A stretch of DNA of 64,000 nt from Tricholomella constricta (Eukaryota; Basidiomycota; Agaricomycetes; Agaricales; Lyophyllaceae), in NCBI GenBank assembly GCA_013368375.1, contig JAACJP010000014.1, forward strand, positions 372,001 to 436,000. The letters are read 5' to 3'. This document shows, piece after piece, positions 9,047 through 59,395 of this stretch. Both the position numbers and the translations under genes were made by a program. Position 1 is the first letter of the stretch. Each line of letters begins with the position of its first letter. The notes under the pieces were generated by a model, which saw nothing but the letters and a program-made list of their open reading frames with translations, was not told the origin of the DNA and did no database searches.

Positions 9047-9375
9047 TGTTGGAATGCGGAGAGCACCGAACACACCCTTTGTGTCGGCTCGACCATTCAC
9101 GGTCTATTTCCTTTCATCTTACTTACAACAAAGGACTCTTTATTTACAGTACACATATATATATACCCTACCATACCTCTAGATACCCTTAGTCGCTTAT
9201 ACGAGACTAAGGGTGAGTAGTCTACATTTATCCCACTCACGGACACGTAACTAACTATAGTGTAGATACTTATCGTTCACTTATAGGTACGGTCCACAAA
9301 TAATAATAGTCGCTTATACGAGACTAAGGATACTTATCGTTCACTTATAGTGATCCAACGGTATAGATTCTAACA
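9047..9375 (+). repeat. 5' LTR of copia-1
   Basis: 329 bp. Contains TATATATATACCC (about 9155), a hairpin of CCTTAGTC and GACTAAGG arms around 9187-9213, and an internal direct repeat of the TTATCGTTCACTTATA block and of the AGTCGCTTATACGAGACTAAG block. Confidence 0.95.
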
Positions 9376-9388
9376 GGTTATGGGCCAA
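9376..9388 (+). other. Primer binding site of copia-1 (initiator tRNA-Met half-tRNA type)
   Basis: GGTTATGGGCCAA starts right after the LTR terminal CA. Its reverse complement contains GGCCCATAACC, the anticodon arm (CAU) of eukaryotic initiator tRNA-Met, as in Drosophila copia, rather than the tRNA 3' end. The same 13-mer abuts the 5' LTR of copia-2. Confidence 0.8.
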
Positions 9389-9549
9389 TCGCCGAACTCT
9401 TACTAGAGACGGCGTTAGAATCTCCACCAACCAAAAATCTCGGACCGAAAAACCGATCTTATCGGTAGATCTTATCTGACGCGCTACCGCATCAGGACAC
9501 GCGCAACGCGCACAATTCTCTTTGTCTACATACGCCTATCGCTACAGAC

Positions 9550-12500
9550 ATGCCCCCCAAAGCAACCGATCCCAAAGACGCCCCCGACCCGGAGGGCAAG
9601 ACTACCAAAGTCCTATCCACTGACGCTATCCACCCCTCCGTCACTCTGCTCCGCGCAAGCATCCCTTTCAGTGGCGCAAAGCTGCACCGCGACAATCATG
9701 ACTGGAAGAAATGGGAGCGCAACTTCAGGACGTTCACCACGTTAAACCATCTCACCCACTATGTTTTCCCCCCCTACACTTACCTCCCCCTCCCACATGT
9801 TGAACCCCGCGCGTTCTCGAATTATACGGAGAACCTTACGATGGCTGTCGCCGCGCTGCAAAGTGCCGTCGACGATTCCCTTCACGATCTTATCGACTAC
9901 GAGAAGGGGGTCAGGAGGAGCTACGATGCCTTAAGGGAACACTGCCAGAGCGCAGGGCCAATCCGTCAAGTTGCCATTATCCGGCAAGCCCTGTCAACTT
10001 ACTGCTCCCCCTCCGAGCCCCTCGTCACCACAGCTAATAACATATGCATGCTCATCGATACAGCCTTCGATATGGGAGCCATCACGCGCGATCTCTTCAA
10101 ATGCATCGCGCTCCTCAACAGCTTGAGCGACAAATCGTATGAAACCATCCAATCTACCATCTCCCGCGCCCTATCCGACTCTACCTCCGAATCCCCGTAT
10201 ACCGCGGCCCAAATTATTCGGGTCCTCCAGAACGAGCAGACGCTCCTGACCGCGAAGGAACAGATGCGTCCTCACGACACCGCTCTTGCAGCGAAGGATT
10301 CGGGCGGTCACTCACACAACCATGAACCCGGAGCCATCTGCTGCTCCACCTGCTTCGCCGCCAAGAAACCCTGCAAAGGGCACACGACCGAATGGTGCGT
10401 TCGCCCAGGAGGAGGAATGGCAGGAAAAACCATCGCAGAATCCGTCGCCGCAAGGAGGGGAAAGAAGGCTGGAAGTAAACCGGGGGGGAACCCAAGCACC
10501 AACAAGAACAAGACGCCCGTCCCTTACATCAAGGACGGAAAGGCGTACATCGCCTATGTCGACAGTTCCGACATTACCGAAGCTGACGCGCCCAAACCAG
10601 AATTCGCTGGGCTGGCATCATCTCCCCCGCCCACAGGCGGCACAGCTTCCATTAACGAAACAGCGTGGATCGCGTTAGGAGGAGACCTAAAGGCCTCTGT
10701 CGATTGGAGCAAACACTCGAAGTCAGTCGACGAATCAGCCTACGCCAGCATCACGCCACTCCAGCAGACAAAGAGAACACCCATCTCTATCGAAGAATAC
10801 CCGTTCTATATCGATTCGGGTGCCACTGTCCACATCTCCCCAGACATGAACGACTTCATGACACTCCAGCCGACCCCCTCTAGATCTATCACCGGCGTCG
10901 GCGGATCGTCGATCGCAGCCCTGGGCATTGGAAAAATAAGGCTTCACATCGCAAAAGGGGCGTCCATCATCCTCGAGGACGCGCTCTATGTTCCCAACTC
11001 CACGGTCCGCTTAATCTCAGTTAGCGCAATGTCCACGCGTGCTGGGACCACTACACACTTCGACGACGAGGGCGTCAAAATATACAACAAGTCAACCGGC
11101 GCCTTCATCGCCGGCGGTCCCCTTATCCCAAACCAGCGCCTTTACGCTCTCAAACTTGCCTCAGTATTCGCGGACCATGCCTACTCTACGCAACATGCTC
11201 CGAACCTCGAGACCTGGCACCGTCGCCTTGGTCATGCCAATTACCAGACCGTGAACGAGATGGTGAAAGCCGGCATGATCGCAGGTATGCCCTCTACATC
11301 CCTCCCCCTTCCACAAAAATGTGACTCGTGCATCCTTGGAAAACAGACCAGGACACCTGTTCCAAAGATACGTGAAGAAGGGGAGGGGCACAGGGCAACG
11401 AGGAAACTGGGTATCGTTTGGATTGACCTTACTGGGAAAACGGATGTACAATCTCGCAATGGATATAACTACATGATGAACCTTGTCGATGATTATTCCA
11501 ACAAACCCTGGTCGATCCCTCTTAAGCTAAAAAGCGACGCGCTAGAGGAACTCAAAGCTTGGGAAAGGGCTAGGGAACGAGAAACCGGACTTAAAGTCGG
11601 AGTGTATCGCACGGGACATGATGGGGAACTCTCTGGGCACAAAATGGAAGCATGGCTCAAAGCGCAAGGCGGCGCGCAACAGTTCGGCGCACCGTATACA
11701 TCAGCGCACATGGGGCGCGTCGAGCGTATGCATCGCACGCTCAATAACAAAGCGCGCACAATGCGCATCGCAGCCGGTTGCCCGCCCAATATGTGGGACG
11801 AATTCTATCTCACGGCATGCTATCTCCACGAAAGAACCGCTACTAAATCCCTGAAAGGCAAATCAGCATACGAAGCCTGGCATGACCGACCGCCGAACTA
11901 CTCGTACATGAGGGAAATCGGCTGTCGCGCCTTCGTCCTGATCCAAAACCGAAACAATCCGAAGATCTACGAGCGGTCTATCGAATGTATCCTGATCGGG
12001 TATAATCCCAATGCGAAGGAATACCGATGCTACCATAAACCCTCCGGAAAAGTCTACAGTTCCTATCATGTTCGTTTCCTCGAAAGCCACGACGGTCATC
12101 TCCCAAATATACCGCCATCAACCGAGCGCGAACCTACGACAATACAAGAGATCAGTGACGGCGCAACAGAACAACCGCTTACCATGGATAACGATGATGA
12201 ACACGACTTCTATCCAACAACCGCTGAAGCCGAACCCCCGCAACCAACACTTCCAACACCGCCAGTGGAACCTAGACGCTCCGGACGGATGACACAACCC
12301 TCACAGAAAGCCGATCCCACCAGCACTACCCGCTTAGAACGCGCCATCGCAGAGTCAAAGGCAAGCGCAGAACGCATCAAGGCGGCCAGAGCGGAACGAC
12401 GCGAGGCACCCGCCGATGACGCCATAGCTGACCCAGAACCGGACCCTGTAGACCGAGGACCCGAGCCCCATCACTCCGAAACCGATCATGATCGAGCCTT

Positions 12501-14130
12501 GGCAGCCATCATCGATCAAGGCGGGGTTGATCCGAGGGACCTAGAGTTCGAGGACGAGCCGAAAACATGGGAGGAGGCACAAAAGTCAGCGGATGCAGCA
12601 AAATGGGAGGAAGGATACAGAGAAGAACTTAAATCGCTGAAAGACATGGGAGTATACAAACTGATTCCTCGATCAGAAGTCCCACAAGGCCACAAGATTA
12701 GAAAAGGCCGACCGGTCTTCAAAATCAAGCGCGACGAGAACGGCAAACCCGTACGGTTCAAAGTCCGGCTCGTCTTCAAAGGATACGAGCAGATCTACGG
12801 GAAGGATTACACTAAGACGACCTCACCGACCGCGCGAATGGAATCTTGGCGAGTACTACTACACCTTGCCGCTACTAAAGGATGGCATGCCATGCAGATA
12901 GACGTCAAGACTGCTTTCTTATACGGCCTACTGCCCACGGACGAGATCCAATACATGGAACAACCGCCTGGATTCGAGGAAGAAGGGAAGGAAGGCTGGG
13001 TATGGTGCCTCGTGCGCGGACTTTATGGGATGAAACAGAGCGGACGGATATGGAACCAGACCTTGAACGACAACATGATCTCCTGGGGATTCACCCGTCT
13101 AGCGTGCGAGTCATGCATCTATTACCACAAAACTGACACGGGCACGATCATCGCAGCTGTACATGTCGATGATTTCCTAGCGATCGCCAGCAACGAAGCC
13201 GAAAACAATCGCTTCAAAGAACAAATGCGCAGCGTTTGGACTATTTCAGATCTTGGCACCCCTAGATTCGTCGTCGGCATTGCTGTTGAATGGGATCGCC
13301 CCAACAACACCGTCAAGCTGTCTCAAACCGCCCTCATCGATAAAATAATCCATCTCTTCCGTCAACAAGACGCCACTCCACTATCGCTCCCCATGGAACA
13401 CGGTTTGAAACTAAGGCGAGTAGATCGCGCATCCCTATCTCCAGACGAACAGATCGCCGTCGCCAAACTCCCCTACCGCTCCCTCGTCGGGTGCCTCCTA
13501 TACTTAGCCATATCCACGCGACCAGACATAGCTTACGCCGTTCAGCAACTCACACAATTTGTCGACTCATATTCAACTGTACACTGGAATGCCGCAATCC
13601 GCCTGGTGCGTTATCTGAAGGGAACCCGCGATCTGAAACTTCATCTTGGAGGAACGCTACCCATCTCCCTCGTCGGATTCACCGATTCAGACTGGGCAAA
13701 CTGCCTCGACACTAGACGGAGCATTGGCGGATACACTTGGAGTCTCGGCTCGGGCGCTATTTCTTGGGCGGCGCGAAAACAGAAAACAGTCGCGGCGTCA
13801 TCTTGCGAAGCGGAATACATGGCTGCCTTCGAGGCAGCACAAGAGTGCATATGGCTCCGAGCGCTACTGAACGCGATCGGATACGAGACACCCACACCTA
13901 CCACTATCCTATGCGACAACAACGCCGCGATTAATCTCTCAGAAGACTCGCTCTTCCACGCCCGCGTCAAACATGTTGATATCAAGTACCATTTCCTCCG
14001 CGAACGCGTCCAATCCCAGGAGATAAATGTTCGCTACGTCAACACTAAACATAACGTCGCGGACTTGTTCACTAAACCACTCGAACGCCCACTATTCGTC
14101 CGTCTCCGCGCTCTGCTAGGCCTATTTTAA
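9550..14130 (+). CDS. Gag-pol polyprotein of copia-1
   Basis: A single 1526-codon ORF without frameshift. Gag occupies about residues 1-390, with an extended zinc knuckle CSTC-x9-H-x4-C near residue 260. The protease motif is FYIDSGATVHIS (about 420). Integrase begins with the GAG-pre-integrase block TWHRRLGHANY and CDSCILGK, with catalytic residues in VWIDLTG, GHDGEL and GRVERMHRTL. RT shows MQIDVKTAFLYG, LYGMKQSGRIWN and the catalytic VHVDD. RNase H contains GFTDSDWANC, SSCEAEYMA and the KHVDIKYHF C-terminal block. All catalytic acidic residues I looked for are present. It makes cytoplasmic virus-like particles, cDNA and the integrase complex. Gag and pol are fused in one frame, so Gag excess must arise by another route. 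Confidence 0.95.
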   Translation: MPPKATDPKDAPDPEGKTTKVLSTDAIHPSVTLLRASIPFSGAKLHRDNHDWKKWERNFRTFTTLNHLTHYVFPPYTYLPLPHVEPRAFSNYTENLTMAVAALQSAVDDSLHDLIDYEKGVRRSYDALREHCQSAGPIRQVAIIRQALSTYCSPSEPLVTTANNICMLIDTAFDMGAITRDLFKCIALLNSLSDKSYETIQSTISRALSDSTSESPYTAAQIIRVLQNEQTLLTAKEQMRPHDTALAAKDSGGHSHNHEPGAICCSTCFAAKKPCKGHTTEWCVRPGGGMAGKTIAESVAARRGKKAGSKPGGNPSTNKNKTPVPYIKDGKAYIAYVDSSDITEADAPKPEFAGLASSPPPTGGTASINETAWIALGGDLKASVDWSKHSKSVDESAYASITPLQQTKRTPISIEEYPFYIDSGATVHISPDMNDFMTLQPTPSRSITGVGGSSIAALGIGKIRLHIAKGASIILEDALYVPNSTVRLISVSAMSTRAGTTTHFDDEGVKIYNKSTGAFIAGGPLIPNQRLYALKLASVFADHAYSTQHAPNLETWHRRLGHANYQTVNEMVKAGMIAGMPSTSLPLPQKCDSCILGKQTRTPVPKIREEGEGHRATRKLGIVWIDLTGKTDVQSRNGYNYMMNLVDDYSNKPWSIPLKLKSDALEELKAWERARERETGLKVGVYRTGHDGELSGHKMEAWLKAQGGAQQFGAPYTSAHMGRVERMHRTLNNKARTMRIAAGCPPNMWDEFYLTACYLHERTATKSLKGKSAYEAWHDRPPNYSYMREIGCRAFVLIQNRNNPKIYERSIECILIGYNPNAKEYRCYHKPSGKVYSSYHVRFLESHDGHLPNIPPSTEREPTTIQEISDGATEQPLTMDNDDEHDFYPTTAEAEPPQPTLPTPPVEPRRSGRMTQPSQKADPTSTTRLERAIAESKASAERIKAARAERREAPADDAIADPEPDPVDRGPEPHHSETDHDRALAAIIDQGGVDPRDLEFEDEPKTWEEAQKSADAAKWEEGYREELKSLKDMGVYKLIPRSEVPQGHKIRKGRPVFKIKRDENGKPVRFKVRLVFKGYEQIYGKDYTKTTSPTARMESWRVLLHLAATKGWHAMQIDVKTAFLYGLLPTDEIQYMEQPPGFEEEGKEGWVWCLVRGLYGMKQSGRIWNQTLNDNMISWGFTRLACESCIYYHKTDTGTIIAAVHVDDFLAIASNEAENNRFKEQMRSVWTISDLGTPRFVVGIAVEWDRPNNTVKLSQTALIDKIIHLFRQQDATPLSLPMEHGLKLRRVDRASLSPDEQIAVAKLPYRSLVGCLLYLAISTRPDIAYAVQQLTQFVDSYSTVHWNAAIRLVRYLKGTRDLKLHLGGTLPISLVGFTDSDWANCLDTRRSIGGYTWSLGSGAISWAARKQKTVAASSCEAEYMAAFEAAQECIWLRALLNAIGYETPTPTTILCDNNAAINLSEDSLFHARVKHVDIKYHFLRERVQSQEINVRYVNTKHNVADLFTKPLERPLFVRLRALLGLF

Positions 14131-14168
14131 CGACCCAGATTCCATTCGAGGAGGAGTGTGTATTCGGT

Positions 14169-14177
14169 GAGGAGGAG
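14169..14177 (+). other. Polypurine tract of copia-1
   Basis: GAGGAGGAG directly before the 3' LTR, the expected plus-strand primer. The same word precedes the 3' LTR of copia-2. Confidence 0.75.
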
Positions 14178-14506
14178 TGTTGGAATGCGGAGAGCACCGA
14201 ACACACCCTTTGTGTCGGCTCGACCATTCACGGTCTATTTCCTTTCATCTTACTTACAACAAAGGACTCTTTATTTACAGTACACATATATATATACCCT
14301 ACCATACCTCTAGATACCCTTAGTCGCTTATACGAGACTAAGGGTGAGTAGTCTACATTTATCCCACTCACGGACACGTAACTAACTATAGTGTAGATAC
14401 TTATCGTTCACTTATAGGTACGGTCCACAAATAATAATAGTCGCTTATACGAGACTAAGGATACTTATCGTTCACTTATAGTGATCCAACGGTATAGATT
14501 CTAACA
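14178..14506 (+). repeat. 3' LTR of copia-1
   Basis: 329 bp, identical by eye to the 5' LTR, followed by the target duplication GATCA. Confidence 0.95.
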
Positions 14507-14746
14507 GATCACAGCGCCGATGCTTTGGTCACATCACACTTTCCAAATTGGGCAGTCCTGAGATTCGTGATGACTGTTCGACGTCCTGAGCCATTTTCAC
14601 GGCGCAATGCGCAACACACATTCTCAATTCAAAGATGGGGACGCTTCAGCAACAAAGAGCCGCCTCCAGGAGGAGAGGATTTCGAGCAGAGCCTGAGCAG
14701 CGAGGACCGATGATAATTGATCTAATCATGATCTCGACCCGTTTCA

Positions 14747-15415: not shown

Positions 15416-16411
15416 TTAGATGTTAATATGTAAAGGAATTTTGTGTTTGAGGGCAAACGCGAGACGTTGGGAAGCCCAGGAACGAGTTATAGCGTTAGGT
15501 ACTAGGTAATCGAGACAACGCCAATAAAGGAGGAAACATAAAGAGGACCAGCCGCCGAGTTTCATGATGACTTCGGGAGGAACTCCAGCGGCAAGTAGTT
15601 CGATGGTCCCGCCTATTCGGTAGCTATGGCCGAAGACGGGTTCGAGATTATTAGCGAGGAAAATTTTGGAAGTAGTGGAAAGGAAGTGGGACTTAGTTAG
15701 GGAAGTAAAAGAATCGTTGGTACAATAGGCAAAAAGGTGGATGGATAAAGAGGTGTGGTTAACGCGAAGATGGTTTTCGATGGCAGCGACGGGGCAGAAA
15801 TTGTTGTTCGTCGCCGTGAGGATGCACTGGTCGCCTAGTGGCGAAGTCTTGGTCCACGGAATATGAAAGGTGATGACTTTCGTGTCGTTGACGAAGGAAA
15901 TTTTGAAGTTTGAGGAGCGGGAGGTGTGCCGAGAAGCGTCGTAGGTTGAGGAGGAAGGAAGGAGTTCGCCGAGACGGCGACAGCCCCAGAAAGCGACGAG
16001 TGCAGCAGCCCAAACTGCAGCGCCGTATGGGGAGTTGAGATCAAGGTTGTTGCATAAGCAAAGTAGGTGACGGCCGGAGATGGGATTGCGAGGGGGCCGT
16101 TTAAAAGGAACGCCAAGCTTATCAGCCGAGTGTAGAAGGGAGAGTACCCAAGGGTCCCGACCATGCCATTCGGCACGATTGAAAATGTGCCACGCGCAAA
16201 GTCCGTTGAGCCAATTCCGGATGCATTCGCCGGAACAAGTAGCGGAAGCGTCGGCGACAAAGGCGGAAAGGAGGATGTCCGAAGCAGGCATGCGGAGGCG
16301 CTCGGAGACATGGAGGCGATCACAGAATCGGGTGAATCGTAGGAGTCCTGCTCCGTAGGACTGACGAGTCGATTCGGTGAGAGATTCGAGAAGACGTTGG
16401 AAAATCTGGGA
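15416..16411 (-). CDS. Tyrosine recombinase of the YR retroelement, C-terminal exon
   Basis: Open from a likely splice acceptor (TTTCCAG at about 16412-16418) to the stop at 15416, about 331 codons. The N-terminal part (LTESTRQSYGAGLLRF) fits the SAM-like core-binding domain. The catalytic domain shows the first arginine in GCRRLGE, the H-x-x-R box as HSYRIGG, then LAAGVPPEVIMKLGGWSS and the nucleophile tyrosine in LLYWR. The family integrates a circular cDNA by site-specific recombination instead of DDE integrase chemistry. An upstream exon probably lies across 16460-16757, and the original gene continued beyond 16757 before gypsy-A inserted there. Recombinase motifs themselves look intact. 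Confidence 0.85.
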   Translation of the reverse strand, partial: SQIFQRLLESLTESTRQSYGAGLLRFTRFCDRLHVSERLRMPASDILLSAFVADASATCSGECIRNWLNGLCAWHIFNRAEWHGRDPWVLSLLHSADKLGVPFKRPPRNPISGRHLLCLCNNLDLNSPYGAAVWAAALVAFWGCRRLGELLPSSSTYDASRHTSRSSNFKISFVNDTKVITFHIPWTKTSPLGDQCILTATNNNFCPVAAIENHLRVNHTSLSIHLFAYCTNDSFTSLTKSHFLSTTSKIFLANNLEPVFGHSYRIGGTIELLAAGVPPEVIMKLGGWSSLCFLLYWRCLDYLVPNAITRSWASQRLAFALKHKIPLHINI

Positions 16412-16757
16412 CTGGAAAGAATGAGAAAAATGAAAAAGGAAGAGAGAAGGAGGTACTTGATTTTCGAGAGGTAATTGAGTATTGAGAATAGATTGAGCGT
16501 ATAAGGAGTGGGGCGTAGTCCATAGGAGAAGTCGTTGACCTGCCGGTACAACGGGTCGATAAGGGCTAGGCGCATATGCGTTAGAAATGCGAGGATTGCG
16601 AGTTTTGTGAGAGGGTAAGGAGCCAGCGGCGATGCCACGTGGGTTCGGATTGGCAAGATAGACACCCGGCGCTACGGTGTGGGAAGTGGTGCGAGCTGGC
16701 GTTGCAGAGTCTTCGAGGAAAGGCGAATGTCGAGAGGAAGGAGTGAGTCAAAGGAGC

Positions 16758-17102
16758 TGTTAGGACCTTGCGTAGCACGCTGGTTGCGGAGTTATTCCGA
16801 GACCACCGAAGCGGACAGGCCTGACGTCGTCAAGGAAGACGGGCTCCGATAGGGTAATCGGAGGTCGTGAGCGTTGACGAGGGTGTTCACCGGAGCTTAT
16901 TCGAACGAATGAGCACAAGTGATACAATTGCGGAGCCGAGTAAACCGAGAGAGTAAGAGAGAATAAGAAACGGGAACGGGAACTAGTCGTAACAAATGGT
17001 AATATCGAGGTAAAGAGTCTGAAAAGAAGTGGTGCCATCATATATGCGGTGGACGTGCATGGGAAAGCATAAGTGATTGCGAGTTTAGGGGCGGTCGTGA
17101 CA
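16758..17102 (-). repeat. 3' LTR of gypsy-A
   Basis: 345 bp, four substitutions from the 5' LTR. On its gene side GAGGAGGGGG (sense strand, 17106-17115) is the polypurine tract, separated from the LTR by TAA. Confidence 0.9.
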
Positions 17103-17324
17103 TTACCCCCTCCTCAAGCGTCGAGCCACTGAGACGCGGAAAAAGAAATGTTCGAATACGGGGGGTGTGGCGGTTATTCTCCTTTCTGGGTCGCGCGCGG
17201 TCACGTGAGGGGCACGTGTCGGTCTCGGTTGTAGGTCCTTGTGGGTGTTTTTGAGGATCTCAGAGATCGAAAGAGAAAAAACTTAGGTTGTTTGTTCCTC
17301 CTCCATCTTCTCTTCGTCCTGCTC

Positions 17325-19304
17325 ATGTCGTCCTTCAATCCCGATATCGCGGCCCCCGCCTCCGTTGACCCTAGCACGATTTTGCGCGATTCCGAGTTGG
17401 CGCATCTGTCCGTCGAAGATCGGGCGCGTGTGGCGTTCCTTGGCGTACCCCGACCCGTTTCCCCGACGTCCTCTCTTCCTGGGATTGTCACACTTGTCGA
17501 TGGGAGTGTCGGGGCGGTCCCCAAATCTTCTCCCGCACCTCCCTCAATTCCCGATCATCGGCTGGTCATCCGTCTGCCGGTTCGATCTCGACAGATCCGG
17601 CATCCTCGTTCCTCCACTCCAGAGGTTGAGTTCGAACCGGCCAGCGATCCTGTGTCACGTCCGGCGGCGACCTCGTTGTCCTGGGGGTCCCTTTTGACGG
17701 ATGAGCTGTTGGCGGAGATCTTGCGTACCGCTGTGCAGGTTCCCCCTTCCTTGGCGTGGTGTGAGACGCATGCACCGGTAAGTGTTGCCCTTTTTCTGCG
17801 ATCGATTGTTGATTCCATTTTGGGGTCTTCGTTAGTGTGATCGTTGTCGGGAGCGTCGGCTGTCCTGTCGATTTCAGGAGGTCCGTCTTCGCGGGACCCT
17901 GCCCTGTGTTGACTGCCGTGCGGCGCACTCCCTGTGTTCGCTTTCGTTGGAGCATGGCCTAGAAGTGGCCGCTAGGCAGTTGGGGATTCCCTTGGCGTGG
18001 TTGCGCTCTCGTGCGGAAGGTTTTGCTTTCTCTCGCACTGGCGTTGCGATGTCCTTTACCAGCATCCATCGCGCCTTGCGTTTACCGCTCCCCCCTCCTC
18101 TTCCCGTTGTTTCCACATCCCCTGAAGGGTCCGGTGCTGTTCCTCCTCCTCGTGCTCCCCCGCCTCGCGCCTTTTTTCGCGGTACGCGAGGCCAGGGTCG
18201 AAAGTCTGTGCCTGTTGGCCGTAGGGGTGCGCGCTTGTCCGTTCAGGAGGTGCGCTCTTCGCCTATCCCTGGCCCTTCTCCCTCCTCCTCCCGCGATAGT
18301 TCGGTTTCGCTTGTCCCCGTTCGTCGTTCTGGGCCCATTGTGCGCACCGAGTCTCCGGATTCCCCCATCGCCGGCCCTTCGGAGCCTCTCTTTTTAAAAG
18401 GGTCATCCTCCTCAGGCTCTTCTTCACCCGTTTTGCCCTCTTCCCCCCCCGCCATGTTGATTTCGACCCCCCCTGCTGCTCCGGTTCCCTCCCCTCCCTC
18501 GTCTGAGGAGTACCTCCGTCTTCAACGTCTCTATGACCAGGAGGTCGCGCGCGCGCAGGCCCTCTCTGTTCAAGTCGAGCTTCTCCGGGTCGAGGGTCAG
18601 CGTGCCAAGTCCCATCTTCGTGGCGTATTGGCCGTCTTCACCGATGAACGTGAGCGTTTCCTTCATCTGCAGGCGCAGACTTCGGAGGTCGTAGACGTCG
18701 ATCGTGACGCGGAGGTTGAGGATCTTCGGATGGAGGTGTCGGTTCTTCAGGATGAGGTTGCTGGTTTGCAGGGGCACGTTGTCCACCTTCAGGAGGTTAG
18801 GGATCATTGGCGTGGTCACGCCTTGGACCTCCGCACTCGCGTTGACGGTGAGTTTCGATTCCCTTCATTTTCTCCTTCTTGTTTCTAAGACTTTTCGTAG
18901 CCCTCGACCTTGCGCGTACCGCCTTCGCGTCCGATATGTATATCGCGGATGGTGCTTTGCGTCGCGCCCTCGTCGAGTTGGAGGCGTCGCCAGTCCGAAG
19001 TATCATCGATGGCGCCCACAAGATTCTTGAGCGGCACTCGCTCCTGGAGCTGTTCCGCCCCCCCGTCGATCCCGAGTCGCCGTTCCCCGCGTTCGAGCAT
19101 TTCCTTGCTCTTCATCGCCCTTCTCTTACCCGCGAAGGTGCCTTGGCGGAGTTCGTATCTCAGTCTCAGTTGATCGCCGACGACGAGCTGGACATTGCGT
19201 CGATGCGTCCCCTGGAGATAGGGTTGGTTGGGGAGGTGGGGGGTGATCGTGAGGGCGGTTCTTCTTCCAGTGCGGGTCCCTCTAAGCGTCGTCGCATCGA
19301 GTAG
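17325..19304 (+). CDS. Antisense cargo gene of gypsy-A: Zn2Cys6-spaced, coiled-coil protein
   Basis: Three exons with consistent phases: 17325-17777, 17836-18847 and 18901-19304; introns of 58 and 53 bp; about 622 residues, no lesion. Exon 2 opens at residue 152 with CDRCRERRLSC, 12 residues, then CVDCRAAHSLC: the spacing C-x2-C-x6-C-x12-C-x2-C-x6-C is exactly that of fungal Zn(II)2Cys6 clusters, with the usual basic residues after the second cysteine. A Pro/Ser-rich linker follows, then about 100 residues of probable coiled coil (DQEVARAQALSVQVELLRVE, VEDLRMEVSVLQDEVAGLQG), a helical C-terminal domain (MYIADGALRRALVELEASP) and the terminal basic cluster SKRRRIE, a possible nuclear signal. 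It lies wholly between pol and the 3' LTR, opposite to gag-pol. I infer a nuclear, possibly DNA-binding, dimeric protein. Alternative start: MGVFEDL at 17241. Confidence 0.75.
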
Positions 19305-19542: not shown

Positions 19543-22500
19543 TTAAATTGTGGGGTCCCGTGGTTTTCTTGGGAATAGTCGGTGGAATTCAAGGGCCATG
19601 TCCTTTGCTCCTTCTATATTCTCCGCTGGTTCCCAGGTATCGTCTTCGGGGCCGTACCCTTCCCATCGTACCAAGTAGAGGACGTGTTTCCCTCGTGTTC
19701 GGGAATCCAGGATCTGTCCCACTTCGTAGTGTTCTTCGCCCTCGACTTCGATCGTCTGCGGAGGTGGTTTTGATCGTCCGGGGAAATTCTCGTGCTCGTG
19801 TTTCTCGAGCAACTTGACGTGGAAGACATTGTGAATCCCTTTCAGTGTCGGAGGTAGTTCCAGTCGATACGCGTGGCTGGAGATCTTCTGCAGGATTTTG
19901 AAGGGGCCCAGTCTCCGGTGGTCCAGCTTTTTGGAGGGGCGTTTCGTTTTGATGTTCCGGCAATCGAGCCATACCTCCGTTCCTACGGCCCAATCTGGTG
20001 TAGGGTCCCGTTTCTTGTCCGCGAATCATTTGTAGGCTTTGTTTGCGATCTCTATCTCTTGGCGGAGGTAGTCCTGGAGGGTCCGGAGGTCTACGGCTAC
20101 CTCCTGGGCTTCCTTTGCCGGTATGTCTTTTATAGAGATTGTCAGGCGGGGGTGATAACCCTTGTTCGCAAAGAAAGGAGAGACTCCCGTGGTCGAATGG
20201 GTCGTATTGTTATACGTGAATTCCGCCAGTGGGAGCTGTGTTCGCCAGTTGGTCTGGAGGTAGTTCACGTATATCCGGAGGTACTGTTCCAGTGTCTGAT
20301 TTACTCGTTCCGTCTGGCCGTCGGTCTCCGGGTGATACGCGGTCGAAAGGTTCGATTTAATGTCCAGGGCTTTACACAGCGAGCTCCAGAAACGGGAGAC
20401 GAAGAGGGTGCCCCTGTCCGATATGATGTCGTCGGGCAGTCCGTGCTTGGAGAAGACATGTTCCAAGAATAGTTGAGCAAGTTCCTTTGCTGTGTCCGTT
20501 GTGTGACAGGGTATGAAGATGCCTTGCTTGGTGAGGCGGCATACTACGACCAGTATGGCGTCGTACCCATCCGATTCCGGTAGTTCTACAATGTGGTCCA
20601 TGGATATGGAGGCCCACGCCCTTCGCCCAATCTGGAGTGGTTTCAATAGTCCCTATGGGCTATGGCGTGGGACCTTCGCTCTTTTACAGGTATAACAGCT
20701 TCGGACGTATCGAGTGACCTCCTTCCGTAACCCGGGCCAGAAATAAGTCCTCATGATGAGTTGTGTGGTCTTTCTGATCCCTGGATGTCCGCGCAGTTTG
20801 TGGTCGTGATGTTGCTGTAGGATGTCGAGGTGTAATCTGGAATGGTCCGGTACGTAGATTCTTCCGTCGCGAAGGAGTAGTTTGCCATCATCGGATAGGG
20901 AGAACGCGGAGGTCTCATCTCCGGGTTTGGGTGCGTGTCTCTCGAAGAATTCGTCTCGGGGTGTGTTCCGGATGTTGTTTAGTAGGAGCTCCTTGTTCAG
21001 TATTAGCGCCGCGTTCAATCGTTCAGGGGGTATGATGATGCGGTTGTTGAACGAATTATGATCCTGTTCGAACCCTTTCTTGGGATACACGTCTGGCCGT
21101 CGCGTGAGGGCATCTGGTTTCGCTCCTAATCTTCCGGGTCTGTAGTTTATTTGGAAGTCGAAGTTCGCCAGGCATTCCGACCATCGTGCTTGTCTGCGAC
21201 TGAGTTGCTTGGTCGTAGAGAAATACTGTAGGTTGTTGTGGTCGGAGTACACTTGAATGCGGTGGGGTATCATAGTTCTCGCGTAGAAGGCGACAGGACG
21301 TAAGTCTTGTGATGTCTCGTCAAATTGGGAGATGATCCCCGCTATGGCGAAATCGGAAGCGTCGCACTCTAATATCACCGGTAGTTGAGGATCGAAGTGT
21401 CGTAGGATGGGTGCGGAGGAGAATGCTTTCTTCAATAGCTCGAAGACTCCTTCGCATTCGGAATCCCATTTCCAGATTGTGTCCTTTTGCGTGAGTTTGT
21501 TTAACCTCTTCGTTATGCCCGAGTAATTGTCGATAAACCGCCGATAGAAGTTTGCAAAGCCTAGGAAAGATTGGAGTTCCTTGACCTTCGTCGGTCTAGG
21601 CCACTTCCGGATCACATCGACTTTTCCTGGATCCATCTTTACTCCGCCGGGGGATACGATGACGCCTAGGTATTCGATCTCCGTAGTGTGAAACGTGCAT
21701 TTCTCCGGTTTCGCATGAAGGTTGTGTTTCCGGAGCCTCTCGAGGACCTTCCGAACGTGTCCGTGATGTTCCTCTAAGGTCTCCGAGAAAACCAGAATGT
21801 CGTCGAGGTAGATCACTACGAACACGTCGTTCATGTCGTGGAAGATGTCGTTCATGAAGTGTTGGAATGTCGCGGGTGAGTTTGTCATGCCGAAGGGCAT
21901 TACCAGGTATTCGAAAAGTCCATAACGAGTGCGGAAGGCTGTCTTCCATTCGTGTCCCGGAGCTATGCGGACGTTGTTGTAACCCACCCGGAGGTTGATC
22001 TTCGAGTATACTTTGAAGTCGGTCTATGAGGTCTCCGATCAGAGGTAGAGGGTAACGGTTCTTCTTGGTGATCCGATTTAATCCTCTATAGTCCACGCAT
22101 AGCCGGAGTGATCCGTCCTTCTTCTTTGCGAACAGTACCGGAGCTCCCGCTGACGAACTCGAAGGTCGGATGAACCCTTTTCCGAGCATCTCGTCGATGT
22201 AATCCTTCAATGCTTTCAACTCCAGTTCGGACATGTTGTATATCTTTCCGAAGGGAGGGGTAGTGTTTTCGTCGAGTTCCACTGTGTGATCGTAAGGTCG
22301 GTGTGGGGGGATGGTTTTCGCTTCGCCCGCTGAGAATACGTCTTCGAAGTCCCTGTACTCCGGAGGTACGACTTCCTCGAAGATTTCCTTTTCTGTCTTT
22401 GGTTGCTTGGGTTCATCATCGGAGGTGTTATTGGCATGGAGGTGTTCTTCCTTTTTGGTGGGGGAGATGTGTAGTTGGAACGCTGTGGCTCCGTCCCTGA

Positions 22501-23866
22501 TGAGGTTCGCGAATGGCGCCGCTCCGATCAGGCGGATGTTTTGTGTTTCGACATCCTCTTCTCCCTCTCCGGTTTCGTCTTCGACCTCCGTTTCCGGGTT
22601 GGTTTCCTCTTCTTCCTGTGTTTCTGTCGTTGGGGACATTGCGGATTTCCGTTTGGGGTGGGGTTTGAATTTGGACCTCGGAACGTTTGGAGGGAAGTAG
22701 TTCGGTGGGGGTGGTTTTCGGGTGCATTTCCGTCCCGTTACCTCCTCTGGCGACTCGGTTGTCGGTGTTGGTACTTCCTCTTGGGGTTCGTTGGTGTTTG
22801 GGCGGGTGTCTTCCTCCTTCGTGTTGTCGCTGGGGGTGTCGTTCTGATCGTTGTCATCGTCCAGGAGGTCCCTGAGGAGGGGTTGTTTCTCCGAAAGGGG
22901 GTTGGCTGGTTTCGGAGCTTCGACGTCTTCCTCCTCCTCAAGGGTCACGGTTCCCCATTGCGTCTTCTGGGAAAGCGATATCGCGGCTAGTCCTGCCCCT
23001 TGTTCCATGGTCATGGACATTTCCCGCCAGTCGATGTCCGGATTTGCTTCCCGTAACCAAGGTAATCCAAGCACTACTGGTGTGGCTGGATGTAATTGTG
23101 TTATGAGGAGGTCGACCTTATACTCTAGTCCGTTCTCAAGTTTGATTGTTTCGGGACTATGGTGTGAAATGGCTCCACCTCCGCTGGGGTTTCCGTCGAA
23201 CAGTTGTAGGGTCATGGGGCTGGCGAGAGGTTTCGGTTTCGTACACGAGGATTGTGCTATGAAATTTCCCGCCGCTCCACTATCGATAAGTGCCCGTAGT
23301 CGCGTTGAGGATCCTTCTAACTGTACTTCGATCGTGAAGGAGCGAGCTGACCGCGAGGGTAAGCGTTGAGCTCCTGTGCTTGTTGTTGTTGGAGCGATTT
23401 CCTTTTTCCTTCGGAGGTCCGGTAGTGATCCTTCGATTTTGCCGTTTGACTCCCGTCGTAGCGTGATGCAGAGGTCTTTCCAATTTATGCGGGGATTGAC
23501 CTCCTTCAGCCATGATAGTCCCAGCACTATCGTCGCTGTCTCGTGGAGTTTCGTTATGAGGAATCTTATCCTCTGAGTGGTGCCGTCACTGAATTTGACG
23601 TCGTTGGTGGTATAGTGTGTGATTTTGCCTGATGCGGAGGGTTCTCCGTCGAATAGGCAGAGGTTTATTGGGGGGTTGAGCTCCTCAAGGTGGAGCCCAC
23701 GTGATGTCGCCATGACGGAGTCCATGAAGTTGTCGGTAGCTCCGCTGTCGATGAGCGTGTTTTCGGGGTCTTCTCCTCCTCCGTTTGGCGTTAGGTGTAT
23801 TAGAAATGCCAGTGATGAATGGGAGGAGAGAGTTACTGTGCGGGTGTCCGTTGTCGATAATGCCAT
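19543..23866 (-). pseudogene. Pol of gypsy-A: two proteases, RT, RNase H, integrase, chromodomain (degraded)
   Basis: Domains in order from 23866: protease 1 (catalytic DSGATDNF, Asp about 40), protease 2 (DSGAAGNF, Asp about 195), an acidic linker, RT ([11 protein letters not shown], then catalytic YLDD), RNase H (CDASDFA), integrase (HHCC zinc finger, SISMDHI, SDRG, GQTERVNQ) and C-terminal chromodomain (YLVRWEGYGPEDDTWEP). Lesions: a net frameshift around 22010 in RT; about 30 residues missing from the RNase H core near 21270, joining TMIP to HRIQVYSDHNN; a TAG at 20653-20655; a TGA at 20026-20028. Pol is in the -1 frame relative to gag. Two retropepsin domains in one chain are unusual. 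The chromodomain normally guides integration to modified chromatin. Confidence 0.92.
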
Positions 23867-23910
23867 TGCGCGTAGTTTAGTGTCAAGGTCCGTTTTTAGA
23901 TCTTCGCGAT

Positions 23911-26775
23911 TCAGAGCCCGGGCAAGTCCTGAATCGCCCCCGCGTTTCCCTCTTCTGTCTTGTGATGGAATTCGAAGATATCGTCGTCGATGAGATAGGT
24001 GGCTCTGCCCATGGTGTTTGCTGTTGGGCAGTCGCGCATCCAGTGTTCCAGATCACCGCATAGGATGCAGGCCTTGTCTCGAATTCGTTGTTGCTTTACG
24101 TCTTCGTCGATCTTCACCCAGGGGCGTGTTGACTTCTTGAACCCGAAGTTGTTGGCTTGTAGGGCCTCTTCATCATCCCATGCGATTTCTTGGCCTTGCG
24201 CCTTACCTTCCTTACCTGAGTCCGGGTCCTGATCATGACTTTCGGCGTTCAAGCGTGCGTTCCTGTTCCCTTGAGCCGTTTGCGGCGTCGTGCGGCTTGC
24301 GGGTCCGGCCGAAGGTCCCATCGGAGGTCGTGCGGAGGTGTTGGAGGTGTTCGCATTATTCGCCCAGAGGGGTTTGTAGGACTCTGGATTTTCTATGCGA
24401 TGTTCCCAGTACCTCCGGTCGATTTGGGTGACCAGATCTCGGTAACCTTCGTAGGTTTCGGGGCTTGGTGCGATGGCCAGGACGTTAAGGATTCGCTGGG
24501 GGAGCACTTTCCGGAGTGTGAACTGTAGTGCTACCCAGTTCCAGCCTGTTTCGTACGCTTCTTGTTCGAACTTGATGATGAATGCTGTGAACTTTTCCCA
24601 TTCCTTCATTTTCAGTCGCGAAATGTTGTTCTCAGCTTCCACTCTCGAGTTCGGTATTCCGAAGCGTGATCCTAATTCGTGTACGAATCCTTCCCAATTC
24701 GTGAACATTGGGTGTTGGGGGTTGTACGTGAGTTGCAGCCGAAAGTAGTCCATAGCTCCGTCCTTTAAGTAGGAGCTCACGAATGACACCTTCAGGTGAT
24801 CCTGTTCGTAGGTGATCGCCTTGGCTTGAAACGTTACTAGGCATTCCGTGACGAAGGTTTTCCATCTCCTCGGTTCTTTTCCAGTGAAGGGGTCCGGTTT
24901 CCTGATGTCGATTTTCGATTCCAGGTTTAGGAGGTGTCGGTACTGTTCCGGGGTCAGGTTTTGGTTTGGGCCTAAGAGCTGTTGCGGTGGAGGTGGGGGT
25001 CGTTGAGGGTTTGCGAATTGGCCTCCTCCCGGATTTCCAGGTGGGCCTCCTCCTCCTCCTCCTCCGTGGCCTCCTCCTCCCCCTCCGGGACCTCCGTGGC
25101 CTCCCGGGCCTCCTGGTCCTTGTGGTGGTCCGTATCCTCCGTGACCTTCCCCTCCTCCAGGACCTCCTGTTCCTCCGGGGCCGTTTCCCCAATAACCTCC
25201 TCCTCCCCCTCCTGGTCCTCCGGGGCCGTTTCCCCATTGAGTTCCTCTCGGGGTAGGTGGTCCCGAAGATCCCGGAGGTGGTTGGGGCTGTGGAGGTGGT
25301 CCGTTGTACTGGGGGTTCGGTCGTCCCCCGGGTATGGGTGGGGCTGGTCCGGGGTTGTAGCCAGTTCTGTATTGTTCGAACTGGGGGAATTGTTGTTGGG
25401 TCCCTTGCCTTCCGTCGAGGATGTTTACGTTTTGACCGGGGCCGGGGTCCGCTCCGATTCCATGTCGTTCTCTTGGGGAGATTGGGCGTGGGCCTTGCGG
25501 TGACCTCCTGTTCTGATTTGCCAGATGAGGTGGTGTTTGGCGCCAGTCTTCTCGTGCCCTAGGGGGTGCTCCCTCTCTTCTTTCCGAGTTTTCTTCGCGT
25601 AGTTCGTAGCTGTGGGCGTACGACAGTGGCGTTGGGATTCCCCGTTCCGACGGAGGTAGGGGAATGTTCTCAGGTTCCCTCAGAGGTACTCCTTCTTGGT
25701 TTGCGAAGGTCTTCTGTGGGCCCTGAAAACCCGAATTTGGCCTGGAAAACGGTCCTTCGACAGGGGGGTTCTCTTCGGGGATTCTTTGTAAGTTGTGGGC
25801 TCCCCAGAACCCGAACGTCGGAGCTCTTCGAGCGTCTGTCCCTGGTGTGACGGTGGGTTCGAACCCTTCTTGGCTGGGGGGTGCGTTCCCTTGGTTCATC
25901 CTCCTGAGTAGAGCCGAAGCTGTCTGCGTATTGACCGTGCTTGTCGCTCGTGGAGGTTCTTCGAATCTAGTTTCGATTCTGGAGGGAACGGGCTCCTGAA
26001 TTGGCATGTGGAAGGAACGTCCCGCGCTTTGGGGGTCGGAGAATCTTCTTCCCTCGTTGGACGTCTGGATTTCTCCAGCCAGGGCGCGTAACCTTCTTTC
26101 GTTTCCCCCCATTTGTAGCAACACCGTCAGTTGTGGGGGTAATCGATGGGCTTCGTGCAGTTGTATGGTCGACAACACGAGGTTGGCCCATTGTTCCGGT
26201 GTTCGGGGTTGATGATCCATCCCCATGGTTTCGACTAGGAGCTCGTGCGCTTGTCGTGAAAACTCTTCCCGAGTCATGCGGAGCTCGTAGAGTATTCTTT
26301 CGTGGTCTGAACCGTGTAGGAAGGGGTTTTGTTGACGAGCGAAGTGTCCCTGTCCCTCCTCCCGAGCCCTATCCCTCCTCTGGAACATCTCCGGGTGCCT
26401 CAACCTTTCGTAGTATGACCCGGGAGTCTGGTTACTTGAAGGCGGAGGCCCGGAGGCCGTTGCGGATGGTGGTAAGGGGGGATAGTTGGGGGTGGCGAGT
26501 TGGTAGGACGGGTTGAATACGTTTGAGGGGGTCCGGGGTAGGGGTCGTCGAGGGTCCTGACTGGCTGAGGAAAAGTCCCCCTCGTGTTGGCCTGGTTGGA
26601 AAATGTTGTGTTCCAGCCTGGACCTGTTGGTTCCGAAGGTCCCTTGCATCATGTGTCCTGTTGAGGCAGGGGAGGTTTCGAAAGGTGGGGGTGAAGGTCT
26701 TCTTTGTGTGAAAGAGGGACCTTCGAAGTTTTGATAGCGGACTGTGGTGTTGGGCTCCACTATCGTCGAGGACAT
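23911..26775 (-). CDS. Gag of gypsy-A
   Basis: 954 codons, open throughout; large for a fungal gypsy gag. The N-terminal half is proline-, arginine- and glutamine-rich and probably disordered; the middle holds a strong Gly/Pro tract ([12 protein letters not shown] and similar). The retrotransposon capsid region follows, with [20 protein letters not shown], then LKDGAMDYF and [25 protein letters not shown] zinc knuckle [15 protein letters not shown] (C-x2-C-x4-H-x4-C) lies near the C-terminus. Translation starts only about 30 nt after the 5' LTR. It forms the particle and binds genomic RNA. The glycine tract lies over a region that also reads as long ORFs on the opposite strand, which I take as shadows. 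Confidence 0.9.
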
Positions 26776-26792: not shown

Positions 26793-26804
26793 ACCTCGAT
26801 ATTA
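26793..26804 (-). other. Self-primer binding site of gypsy-A
   Basis: On the element strand TAATATCGAGGT directly follows the 5' LTR. Its exact reverse complement ACCTCGATATTA lies inside the LTR (27047-27058, element strand), about 33 nt downstream of a TATATGA box, where transcription should start. This is the arrangement of Tf1/sushi self-primed elements. Confidence 0.75.
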
Positions 26805-27149
26805 TGTTAGGACCTTGCGTAGCACGCTGGTTGCGGAGTTATTCCGAGACCACCGAAGCGGACAGGCCTGACGTCGTCAAGGAAGACGGGCTCTGATAGG
26901 GTAATCGGAGGTCGTGAGCGTTGACGAGGGTGTTCACCGGAGCTTATTCGAACGAATGAGCACAAGTGATACAATTGCGGAGCCGAGTAAACGGAGAGAG
27001 TAAGAGAGAATAAGAAACGGGAACGGGAACTAGTCGTAACAAATGGTAATATCGAGGTAAAGAGTCTGAAAAGAAGTGGTGCCATCATATATGCGGTGGA
27101 CGTGCGTGGGAAAGCGTAAGTGATTGCGAGTTTAGGGGCGGTCGTGACA
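26805..27149 (-). repeat. 5' LTR of gypsy-A
   Basis: 345 bp. Followed on the plus strand by the GGAGC target duplication. Confidence 0.9.
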
Positions 27150-28555
27150 GGAGCAGAGGGAATGACGAAGACCCCAGGAGCAATGGTCAAGGAAGTAGTA
27201 CGGGCAGGCGTGCTTGCGATTTCGAAGACAGGAGTGCGTGGAAGGATCTGTTGAGGAGGTTCTACCCCGTCTACAAAGGCCTTGCAAGAGACCGAGCGGG
27301 AAATGTCAGACATGGAAAAATGAGAGAAGTTCGTGCGGTAGCGGGAAGCTACGCACGAGAAGAGTTTTAGGAGCGCCCGAGACTCCACGCGAGATCGGGT
27401 CGGCAGGATTGACTTTAGATTCGATGTATCTGAAGGATGGCACGATGAGGCGTTCGACGAGGACGGCGTACGTGCGACGGGTACAGAGGTTGATAGGAGT
27501 ATTGGGGCTACGATGTTTGTTGTGGGCGCCAATAGCTCCATAGTTATCCGAATGGATTAGGACGTGCATGTGGGAGTAGGCGAGTTGCGCTAGGAACGAG
27601 ATAACGAGTTCGATAGCGACGGCCTCCAGCCAGCATATATCATGCTGGGGTTGTTTCCAGTCGTCGACAAGTTGAAGAGCGTACCAGAAGTCGCCGATGA
27701 TGAGACCTAGGCCCTACGACGTGGAAGCGTCGACGAAGATATCCACCTCGGCAATGTCACGGATGGGGTGCAGTTGGCGGAAACCCATAGGGTTTTCGAG
27801 CTTTGTCTGCCACCAGCGTAGAGCATGGACGACGGAGTCCGATAGATGGTGGGTTACGAAGGCGTTCGTTTTGTAACCTAAATGGGTTTAGAAAAGGAAG
27901 CATGAGATATGGAGTAGCTGACCTGACATGAAATTAGAGAAGGCTGGTAATCGTGAAGAGCCTTCAGGATAAACAAAGGAGACGTGGAAAGCGTCCCATG
28001 GATGATTTGGATGTCGCGCAGCTTGAAAGTGGCGCGTTGTTGACAGTGAGCATTGAGCATGTTGGAGACTCGGCCGAGATATTTGAGACGTTTTTTCTCC
28101 GTCAGGGATACGGTACGCGTAGTAAGATCCCAAGAAAATCCTATGTAGGTAAAAGTGAAAGAGAAGCAGGAATCAGTCTTCTCGGGGTGCCAAGGGATAT
28201 TAAGATCGGCGACGAGTAGCATGACGGAGTCTCGGTCGTGAAGATAATGATAGGAACCGTCCGTATAGGGACCGTTAGGTACCGGAAAGCGGAAGGCCTC
28301 TATGTCGTCCTCGTATTTAAGAAAGAGAGACGTAGATTGAACTTCGGCATGCCAAATGTCAATTGAGGCATTGGCTACCTGCCCAGAATTACTGCTTGCG
28401 GGACGAGCGCCGAAAGGGTGTACGTGATCTAAAAAGAATGCTCCTTTAAAGGAGACGACGAGAAAAGGTTTGTGGTCCGGCAACGCCGGACAGGTACGAT
28501 GAAAGGCTTTGATATCAAAGGACATAGCTTGAGTCCCTAGAGGGGCGCGAGCGAC
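27150..28555 (-). pseudogene. YR element RT (second exon) and RNase H
   Basis: Begins at the splice acceptor CTCAAG at 28556 and continues ARAPLGTQAMSFDIKAFHRT, then HPFGARPASSN and the catalytic LKYEDD of RT. The RT frame is open to 27878; an intron or frameshift follows. RNase H is recognisable in EVDIFVDASTS, where an in-frame TAG (near 27719) replaces the next residue, and in HSDNYGAIGAHNKHRSPN and VNPADPISRG. The reading continues to the gypsy-A insertion at 27150. RT and RNase H make cDNA from the element RNA. The stop indicates decay, although splice alternatives are not excluded. Confidence 0.75.
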
Positions 28556-31800: not shown

Positions 31801-31818
31801 CGGGGGCGTACTTTTCAC
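28805..31818 (-). CDS. Pol of gypsy-B, truncated in integrase
   Basis: Open frame from a GTG-initiated region at 31818 (VKSTPPLSSRNRF; -1 frame relative to gag, so normally reached by frameshifting) to 28805, then about 70 codons of LTR-derived tail to 28588. Protease: ALVDSGATGCFIN. RT: WGYNNVRIKEGDEW, catalytic YLDDILIY. RNase H: IEADSSDFATGAV, EIHDKEMLAII, LTDHKNLEYF. Integrase: zinc finger HHDSKIAGHPG to CDMCLRTK, then SVDFITELPESNG with the first catalytic Asp; the other two catalytic residues are deleted. It could still make cDNA in principle but not integrate it. Confidence 0.9.
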
Positions 31819-31829
31819 CCGTTGTGCGA

Positions 31830-33047
31830 CTAAAAATCCTCTTCCGTGGCCAAGGCGGTCGGGTCGGTCGACTCGGGAGTCGGGTCAGCCGGGATCGCAT
31901 CCTTGCGTGCCAGTAGCTGCATGATCAGCTCATCCAGTTCCTCCGGCATGATGTGGCGCACGTCGAAGCGCAATGGACAGTCACGCCAGAAGTGCCCCGG
32001 TTGTTTGCACCGACGGCACTTGTCGTCGCGAACAGGGCGACCGGTGAATCGATCAATGTCCATAGGGACACCGGGAGAAAGAGCTGGCGCTCGGGGGGCA
32101 TGCGCGACATGCGTCGGAGCCGACACACGAGCAGGAGCAACTGGTTGCGCAGAAGGTCGCCAGTGGAGAGCGGGCGCGACTGGGTGCACGGGGACGAGGG
32201 CGGTCGGGCGACTAGCCGACGGGATGGTCAGAGGTGTCCGACGGTGGAAGTCCTCCTCAGTCCTCATGATGAAGTCCTGGGAGCGGGCGATCGCTAGCCG
32301 GTCCTCGATCTTGGAGTCGTTGGGCCGACCCGTGGTGATGCTTCCGAGTCGCTTCGAAAGCTTCGGGTCCATGCCCCGACGGAACTTGAGGACCAGGTGG
32401 CGACCATCCGGGTAGTCGGCCTTGACCCACAGGGCCTTGAACGAGTCTATGTACTCGTTGATGGTGCGCCCGTTCTGGAAATACGCCGTCGACTCGAGGA
32501 TGAGCGCGGCGTCGGCGACCTCGTCAAACAGGAAGAACTCCTTCTCGAAGTTCGATACGAAGTCGTCCCAGGTCGGGAACGCGCGCTTCACCAACCCGCA
32601 CTGAAAGACGCGACCGACGAAGTCAGCAGCGCGACCGTGTTGCATGAACGACAACACCCAGCTAATTCGGGCGTGGTCGTCAGTGAACTGCCCGGTGGTC
32701 AGCGAGAAGTAGAGCTGACACGCATTCCAGAAGGCACGTCCGCCCGATCGTGCGCCATCGTAGGTGGGAGGAGGCGACGGCCGAATGTGCGATCCTGATC
32801 GCGGAGGGGGAGACGTCGGCGAGGGTTGCGCCGGCGTCGCGGGGGTCGTAGATGCTGCTGGGGAGGCAGCGGAGGGGTTCCCCAAAATGAGGGTATCTAA
32901 AAGAGAGGAGATGCGGTCCAGGGTGGCCGAGTTGGAGGTTTGGGTGTGGGAGAGAGCCGATATCGTGGTTTCGAGGCTCGCCAGTCGCTCTTCTGGCGTA
33001 AGCGCAGGGGGAGACGATGGCGTGTCAAAATCACCGAATTCGGACAT
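31830..33047 (-). CDS. Gag of gypsy-B
   Basis: About 405 codons from MSEFGDFD, chosen because gypsy-C gag starts with MSEFGDM at the same place; an in-frame ATG lies 66 nt upstream. Contents: an N-terminal helical segment (EERLASLETTISALS), a Pro/Ser linker, a capsid block (SGGRAFWNACQLYFSL, AYFQNGRTINEYIDSFKALW, LKFRRGMDPKLSKRLGS) and a zinc knuckle CRRCKQPGHFWRDCP. The last codons read GAT TTT TAG where gypsy-C has GGT TTT TAA, so the slippery G-GGT-TTT seen in gypsy-C is altered here. Confidence 0.9.
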   Translation of the reverse strand: MSEFGDFDTPSSPPALTPEERLASLETTISALSHTQTSNSATLDRISSLLDTLILGNPSAASPAASTTPATPAQPSPTSPPPRSGSHIRPSPPPTYDGARSGGRAFWNACQLYFSLTTGQFTDDHARISWVLSFMQHGRAADFVGRVFQCGLVKRAFPTWDDFVSNFEKEFFLFDEVADAALILESTAYFQNGRTINEYIDSFKALWVKADYPDGRHLVLKFRRGMDPKLSKRLGSITTGRPNDSKIEDRLAIARSQDFIMRTEEDFHRRTPLTIPSASRPTALVPVHPVAPALHWRPSAQPVAPARVSAPTHVAHAPRAPALSPGVPMDIDRFTGRPVRDDKCRRCKQPGHFWRDCPLRFDVRHIMPEELDELIMQLLARKDAIPADPTPESTDPTALATEEDF

Positions 33048-33161
33048 CTCAAGACGGGGCTGGGGCGATGATCGGAGCGGGCGCGTGTTGGACGGGTTGC
33101 GTGTAGCAGACACGTGTTTCGACGCGGAAGCTTGATCGGTCGGCCTCGCCGGGTCTTAGGT

Positions 33162-33173: not shown

Positions 33174-33175
33174 GC

Positions 33176-59393: not shown

Positions 59394-59395
59394 GC

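Follow-up and report, generated by a model that had tools for sequence, protein, structure and literature searches.

A spliced antisense gene with a Zn2Cys6-like region in a Ty3/gypsy chromodomain retrotransposon family of Tricholomella constricta

Several plant Ty3/gypsy retrotransposons carry an antisense gene of the aORF-3R type. The parts of PMC7264820 and PMC11963269 that deal with them name gene23 of Grande in maize, RIRE2 in rice and Retand in Silene; in Grande, as described there, gene23 is preceded by a promoter of its own and its product is nuclear; for the Retand antisense proteins DNA binding is predicted (TRP28) and some have Smc domains. The same parts describe HBZ of HTLV-1, an antisense gene whose antisense promoter lies within the 3' part of the proviral DNA; its nuclear protein has a role in the viral cycle. 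In fungi, brtn is an antisense gene in Boty-like Ty3/gypsy elements of Botrytis cinerea, according to the title of Zhao et al. (2011) and a passage in PMC8365987. Plant and Botrytis precedents were all that we found in the open-access literature, with no report of a fungal zinc-cluster antisense gene in a retrotransposon.

The window analyzed here is a stretch of 64,000 nucleotides from the genome of Tricholomella constricta (contig JAACJP010000014.1, positions 372,001 to 436,000). It holds a Ty3/gypsy element whose parts all read on the minus strand, and an additional gene on the opposite strand. The parts of this host element are, in window coordinates:

16758..17102, minus strand: 3' LTR of the host element, from the LTR pair comparison
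17103..17115, minus strand: polypurine tract adjoining the 3' LTR, read from the sequence
19543..24052, minus strand: pol region (protease, RT, RNase H, integrase, chromodomain), broken in the window copy
19543-20025, minus strand: chromodomain (PF00385, E=9e-15)
23911..26775, minus strand: gag frame of the host element
26805..27149, minus strand: 5' LTR of the host element, from the LTR pair comparison

Similar to other chromoviruses, the element has protease, RT, RNase H and integrase followed by a chromodomain, TG..CA LTRs and a short TSD, with GGAGC flanking both ends (16753-16757 and 27150-27154). The two LTRs are 98.84% identical, which bears out the divergence of 1.2 percent given in the first-pass annotation. 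Pol of the window copy is damaged, as had also been claimed: a frame change separates pieces of 818 and 456 aa, two in-frame stops follow further on, and ~75-90 bp present in other copies are missing. The combination of a damaged pol with an intact antisense gene had been taken as a hint of selection, but this argument does not hold. Among 20 ten-kb copies, the window copy included, pol is one long frame in 10 and the antisense gene is open in 16, yet the lesions per kb are similar (~0.15 in pol and ~0.12 in the antisense gene), and we reject lesion counts as evidence of selection.

Two short sequences at the element ends were noted in addition. Twelve nucleotides just inside the 5' LTR (26793-26804) are complementary to positions 92-103 of the sense LTR (17000-17011 and 27047-27058); none of 2000 shuffles gave an equally long complementarity, and of the nine copies shown, six have the identical LTR stretch and three differ from it at one base. 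This suggests self-priming, as occurs in Tf1, and would place the start of the sense RNA at that LTR stretch. Beside the polypurine tract, 26 invariant bases (17114-17139) with the inverted repeat GCGTC...GACGC are possibly part of plus-strand priming.

Elsewhere in the window, a plus-strand LTR element (9047-14507) has identical LTRs of 330 bp and one frame of 1553 aa; it is Ty1/copia-like by eye and looks very young. Directly beside the gypsy insertion lies a minus-strand frame of 443 aa (15416-16747); it matches Phage_integrase weakly, at E 0.042 and below the cut-off, and may be the tyrosine recombinase of a fungal element. Two inverted copies of ~4.9 kb (28805-33647 and 58917-63801) are 79.7% identical, the first being accompanied by 163-bp direct repeats at 28642 and 33176, and a foldback-like inverted repeat with ~330-bp arms that are 95.8% identical occupies 48409-48729 and 49025-49354.

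The additional gene lies between the end of the pol chromodomain and the 3' LTR, in antisense, where the first-pass annotation had placed it, and its three exons of consistent phase were reproduced as follows:

17325..17777, plus strand: exon 1, coding for residues 1-151 with Cys146
17778..17835, plus strand: intron 1, GTAAGT...TAG; 58-83 nt, kept in 34/34 aligned copies
17836..18847, plus strand: exon 2, begins at residue 152; cysteine cluster, linker and bulk of the coiled coil
17836..17937, plus strand: six-cysteine stretch C152-C185, C-x2-C-x6-C-x12-C-x2-C-x6-C; pooled dN/dS 0.12 (residues 151-186)
18517..18847, plus strand: coiled-coil part within exon 2, ~residues 379-488, reaching slightly into exon 3; from the helix model of P0002
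18848..18900, plus strand: intron 2, GTGAGT...TAG; kept in 34/34 aligned copies, L035 being without the acceptor
18901..19304, plus strand: exon 3, conserved C-terminal part, basic tail SKRRRIE, stop TAG

Splicing of these exons at the GT-AG introns gives a frame of 622 aa, the length that had been estimated, and the product contains both the six cysteines at the claimed spacing and the terminal SKRRRIE. Four alternative splice choices leave the frame open as well (616-626 aa), the canonical choice being the one made earlier. The protein has an isoelectric point of 6.8 and is not strongly basic, and the tail SKRRRI(E/D) is retained in seven representatives. The NCBI gene model P0002 (623 aa, predicted) has the length of the spliced product of its subfamily and shows 6 differences from copy L037, while a frameshifted stretch of the NCBI protein D9615_009035 (P0001, T. 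constricta) is common to copy L016.

The element belongs to a family of roughly 100 copies in several subfamilies in the T. constricta genome. A protein search, in which 71 of 319 candidates were scored, gave at least 103 matches; a search with exon 3, with all candidates scored, gave 128, some of them fragments of single copies. For alignment, 34 copies were used, namely the 20 top-scoring places (as 10-kb stretches) and 14 chosen to span the subfamilies, a choice through which open frames are over-represented; the window copy is one of them (L017). In all 34 the chromodomain lies on the opposite strand at the same distance. By coordinates, antisense exon 3 is situated 1.2-4.2 kb from RT at 80 of the 87 RT places listed and was not found beside the other 7. 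Conversely, no RT is listed for 28 of the 108 exon-3 places, with 93 of 1151 candidates scored for the RT listing, and six exon-3 places (L018 apart) have neither a listed RT nor an exact copy of the CACGTG block described below. The impression that some pol copies are without the gene arose at least partly from the scoring of 71 of 319 candidates: all four such copies that were fetched carry it, in one case (L045) matched only from residue 219 onward.

A search for homologues at the same position in related elements, which the first-pass annotation had proposed, is thus answered by many copies, within one genome. By its place between pol and 3' LTR, its antisense orientation and its conservation in most copies, the open reading frame also fits the definition of an aORF-3R. 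A protein database search, which requires shared 5-residue words and in its first run scored the best 7990 candidates by shared words, gave no relative beyond T. constricta and only two T. constricta proteins among the matches listed. As far as sequence comparison can tell, this is a protein-coding gene that is spliced and holds a fixed antisense position in roughly 100 copies. The label "cargo" that it had been given is misleading, as the gene is a standing component of the family and not a recent capture.

The frame of the gene is well kept. All 34 aligned copies retain the ATG and the stop codon, the first acceptor and the two donors; the second acceptor is lost in L035 alone, and no intron-less copy occurs among the 34. 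This is as expected from the earlier argument that the introns survive since the sense genomic RNA, being the opposite strand, cannot splice them out. Frames are open in 28 of the 34 copies (L035 included), and in these the exon lengths vary by multiples of three only, whereas the lengths of the introns (58-83 and 53-60 nt) do not. In a neutral simulation, none of 400 frames remained open at a distance of 0.25. The proposed dN/dS comparison across copies, made with 8 of the 28 open copies, gave values well below 1 within this one genome: 0.20-0.32 between subfamilies at dS 0.43-0.87, and 0.28, 0.40 and 0.69 within subfamilies, the latter based on few changes. The divergence and dN/dS between subfamilies also disfavor a recent passive capture. 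Comparison by frame (10 pairs among 5 subfamilies, 5 copies) gave 0.26 for the true frame and 1.14-1.56 for the others, save one reverse frame at 0.37, a value that probably stems from third positions coinciding with those of the true frame. In the same pairs, pooled dN/dS is lowest for residues 501-590 (0.11) and the cysteine region (residues 151-186, 0.12), followed by the coiled coil (0.20), the N-terminal part (0.29), the tail (0.37) and the linker (0.49).

Within the 16 young open copies, singleton variants look neutral (N43:S21 at a site ratio of 2.70, p=0.32), whereas shared variants do not (N6:S15, p=3e-5; singleton versus shared, Fisher p=0.0025). The RT comparison (15 copies without gaps, 747 bp) gave N8:S11 for singletons and N1:S8 for shared variants. 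Judged by these variants, copies decay once landed, while the multiplying lineages preserve the protein by purifying selection.

This constraint bears on two alternative explanations. In the first, the antisense transcript itself would be the regulator, through sense-antisense pairing or small RNAs, with the protein being secondary. Such a role would agree with the conserved promoter-like block, and antisense transcripts are discussed as regulators in the part of PMC7264820 that treats them, but codon-level constraint and indels in multiples of three need a selected protein. A function of the RNA only is disfavored on the same ground, and we regard the transcript as principal regulator as very improbable. 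In the second, the protein would counter host silencing or compete between copies and change fast for that reason. Indeed, between subfamilies its dN is 0.10-0.21 beside 0.01-0.04 for the chromodomain, and the types of the gene occur in new combinations with LTR and pol lineages (see below); yet positive selection is not seen in the pooled dN/dS by part, where even the linker stands at 0.49, and an arms race of this kind seems improbable to us.

The most constrained parts of the protein include the cysteines. When all six frames of the window were scanned for C-x2-C-x6-C-x(5,12)-C-x2-C-x(6,8)-C, this site was the only one, and 60 first-order Markov windows gave none. The spacing is that of PF00172, and the six cysteines are invariant in the seven representatives and in 8/8 aligned rows; together with Cys146, the seven representatives share seven invariant cysteines. 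The gathering score of Pfam Zn_clus (21 bits) was not reached in any scan: the whole window protein scores 11.1 bits, a 64-aa piece 17.1 bits and a 55-aa piece 20.6 bits, the last in a second register that uses Cys146. With 64-aa pieces, Zn_clus matches at E<=1 were obtained in 8/8 copies (best 0.0022, all below cut-off), the register being read from the window copy, while for exon 2 of L031 there was none at E<=10. Profiles of solved structures gave no match to the antisense protein, and phmmer with the cysteine piece returned PUT3 alone (E 0.47). The AlphaFold2 model of the relative P0002 consists of two coiled-coil helices (372-431 and 440-499; block pLDDT 55-82) and little else, at low confidence; that of the 64-aa piece has short helices at 2-6 and 27-34 and is weak over the cluster, with pLDDT <50 for residues 11-27. 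Of the Zn(II)2Cys6 cluster proposed in the first-pass annotation, the exact cysteine spacing therefore stands, whereas the sub-threshold Pfam score, two competing registers and weak models make the full assignment a candidate only, and we grade the region as Zn2Cys6-like. Compared with PF00172 members of the PUT3 and GAL4 type, it shares the six-cysteine spacing, basic residues between the second and third cysteine and a coiled coil downstream, but differs by the score below cut-off, a middle loop of 12 residues, ~150 residues ahead of the cluster, and the seventh invariant cysteine (Cys146) that opens the second register.

Upstream of the gene, one short sequence is conserved beyond its surroundings:

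17195..17218, plus strand: block of 24 bp, unchanged across five subfamilies and containing CACGTG twice (17202, 17213); probable promoter element of the antisense gene

The five subfamilies differ by 15-26% over the interval between the polypurine tract and the ATG, yet this block is invariant. Within the compared stretch, only the 26-bp run at the polypurine tract is longer and one run at the pol end equals its 24 bp; the older copies L018 and L041 have changes within the block. Its 20-bp core occurs exactly 92 times in the genome and never in a reversed control. Exon 3 lies downstream of 85 of these 92 cores and is absent at 7, and the exact core is missing at 23 of the 108 exon-3 places. 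The leader ahead of the ATG is CT-rich. An own promoter within the 220 bp from the 3' LTR to the ATG, with CACGTG boxes 11 bp apart, is strongly suggested, and the 24-bp block is probably part of it. CACGTG is a sequence that fits bHLH proteins. In copy L027, other sequence takes the position of the 3' LTR up to just before the block, and both the block and the antisense gene are intact.

Two copies show that an element can move with a broken gene. L023 and L026 are 99.6% alike over 9.8 kb from the LTR edge, where their flanks differ; both have a pol frame of 1535 aa and, within exon 1, a tandem duplication of 137 bp by which the protein ends before the cysteines. Since two separate insertions share the truncating duplication, the gene is not needed in cis: either its product was supplied by other copies, or the gene is dispensable. 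The moved broken copies fit a trans-acting product, and plain dispensability fits as well. Exchange between copies is visible in trees of 19 of the 34 copies, in which L017 groups by its LTR with L030, L040 and L042 (support 1.00) and by the first part of the gene with L009, L011, L019 and L025 (support 1.00); similarly, L030 and L032 have near-identical chromodomains (dS 0.046) and a gene dS of 0.435. The disagreement between LTR and gene points to recombination between copies, and this reshuffling argues against a private match of each protein to its own LTR.

The mobility of elements with a broken gene would also suit a gene that serves the host, or a host gene caught as a passenger without a role for the element. 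Introns and a region of Zn2Cys6 type would be in character for a fungal host gene, and the six exon-3 places without listed RT or exact block could include one. Against this stand the fixed place in some 80 of the 87 listed RT copies, the selection in multiplying lineages and a subfamily dS of 0.43-0.87. A passenger should be neither so old nor so regular, and this is the least probable of the readings considered. The same two insertions weigh on a further alternative, a cofactor of integration or nuclear import that tethers the pre-integration complex to chromatin beside the chromodomain of the integrase and has no role in transcription. The coiled coil, the basic tail and the DNA-binding-like region would all suit such a cofactor, and roles of this kind are proposed for plant antisense proteins in the part of PMC7264820 concerned. 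The element already possesses a chromodomain, however, and both insertions arose from an element with a truncated gene, although both could have relied on a product supplied in trans. We consider the cofactor unlikely, if the strongest of the alternatives.

The explanation that we prefer, and to which we give an even chance, is an antisense accessory gene of the Ty3/gypsy chromodomain family that encodes a predicted nuclear, trans-acting, DNA-binding regulator. Here, a host factor, for which a bHLH protein would fit, would switch the antisense gene on and the antisense mRNA would be spliced. The resulting 67-kDa protein may enter the nucleus via its basic tail, pair through the coiled coil and bind DNA by the Zn2Cys6-like region, and would then act in trans, in the manner of retroviral regulatory proteins, to adjust how the element family (or the host) is transcribed. 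A more tentative extension, possible but clearly less probable than the accessory gene as such, is that the family runs its own circuit, in which a separately promoted, spliced antisense gene yields a zinc-cluster protein acting on the family in trans, recombination carries the gene between LTR and pol lineages, intact copies serve broken ones, and a retroviral-style regulator has evolved independently from a fungal transcription-factor module.

Likened by layout to the plant aORF-3R genes as far as the cited parts describe them, the T. constricta gene has the same place and orientation and is conserved in most copies. Unlike these, it resides in a fungal element with a chromodomain, has a cysteine cluster in place of TRP28 and contains two introns, whereas the word "intron" is absent from the text of PMC7264820 and PMC11963269. 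With brtn, compared by title only, it shares being an additional antisense gene in a fungal Ty3/gypsy element. HBZ likewise is spliced and has a coiled coil, in its case a leucine zipper without a zinc cluster. Its promoter is inside the 3' LTR, while that of the T. constricta gene would be outside if the 24-bp block is the promoter, and the resemblance is one of analogy only. The layout as such is thus already known from plants and Botrytis; the Zn2Cys6-like region, the two kept introns, the conserved block and the evidence of selection in a basidiomycete are new as far as the open-access literature goes. Antisense genes of plant LTR retrotransposons have been known without an agreed function. 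In T. constricta, roughly 100 copies in a 44-Mb fungal genome show that selection has acted on the protein and not on the transcript alone, and both the candidate DNA-binding region and the promoter-like block are now directly testable. Should the protein act in trans as a regulator of the family, it would represent a cellular parallel to the antisense regulators of retroviruses, and the gene would be a clear example of a retrotransposed gene that retains its introns because, lying on the opposite strand, it is never spliced in the genomic RNA.
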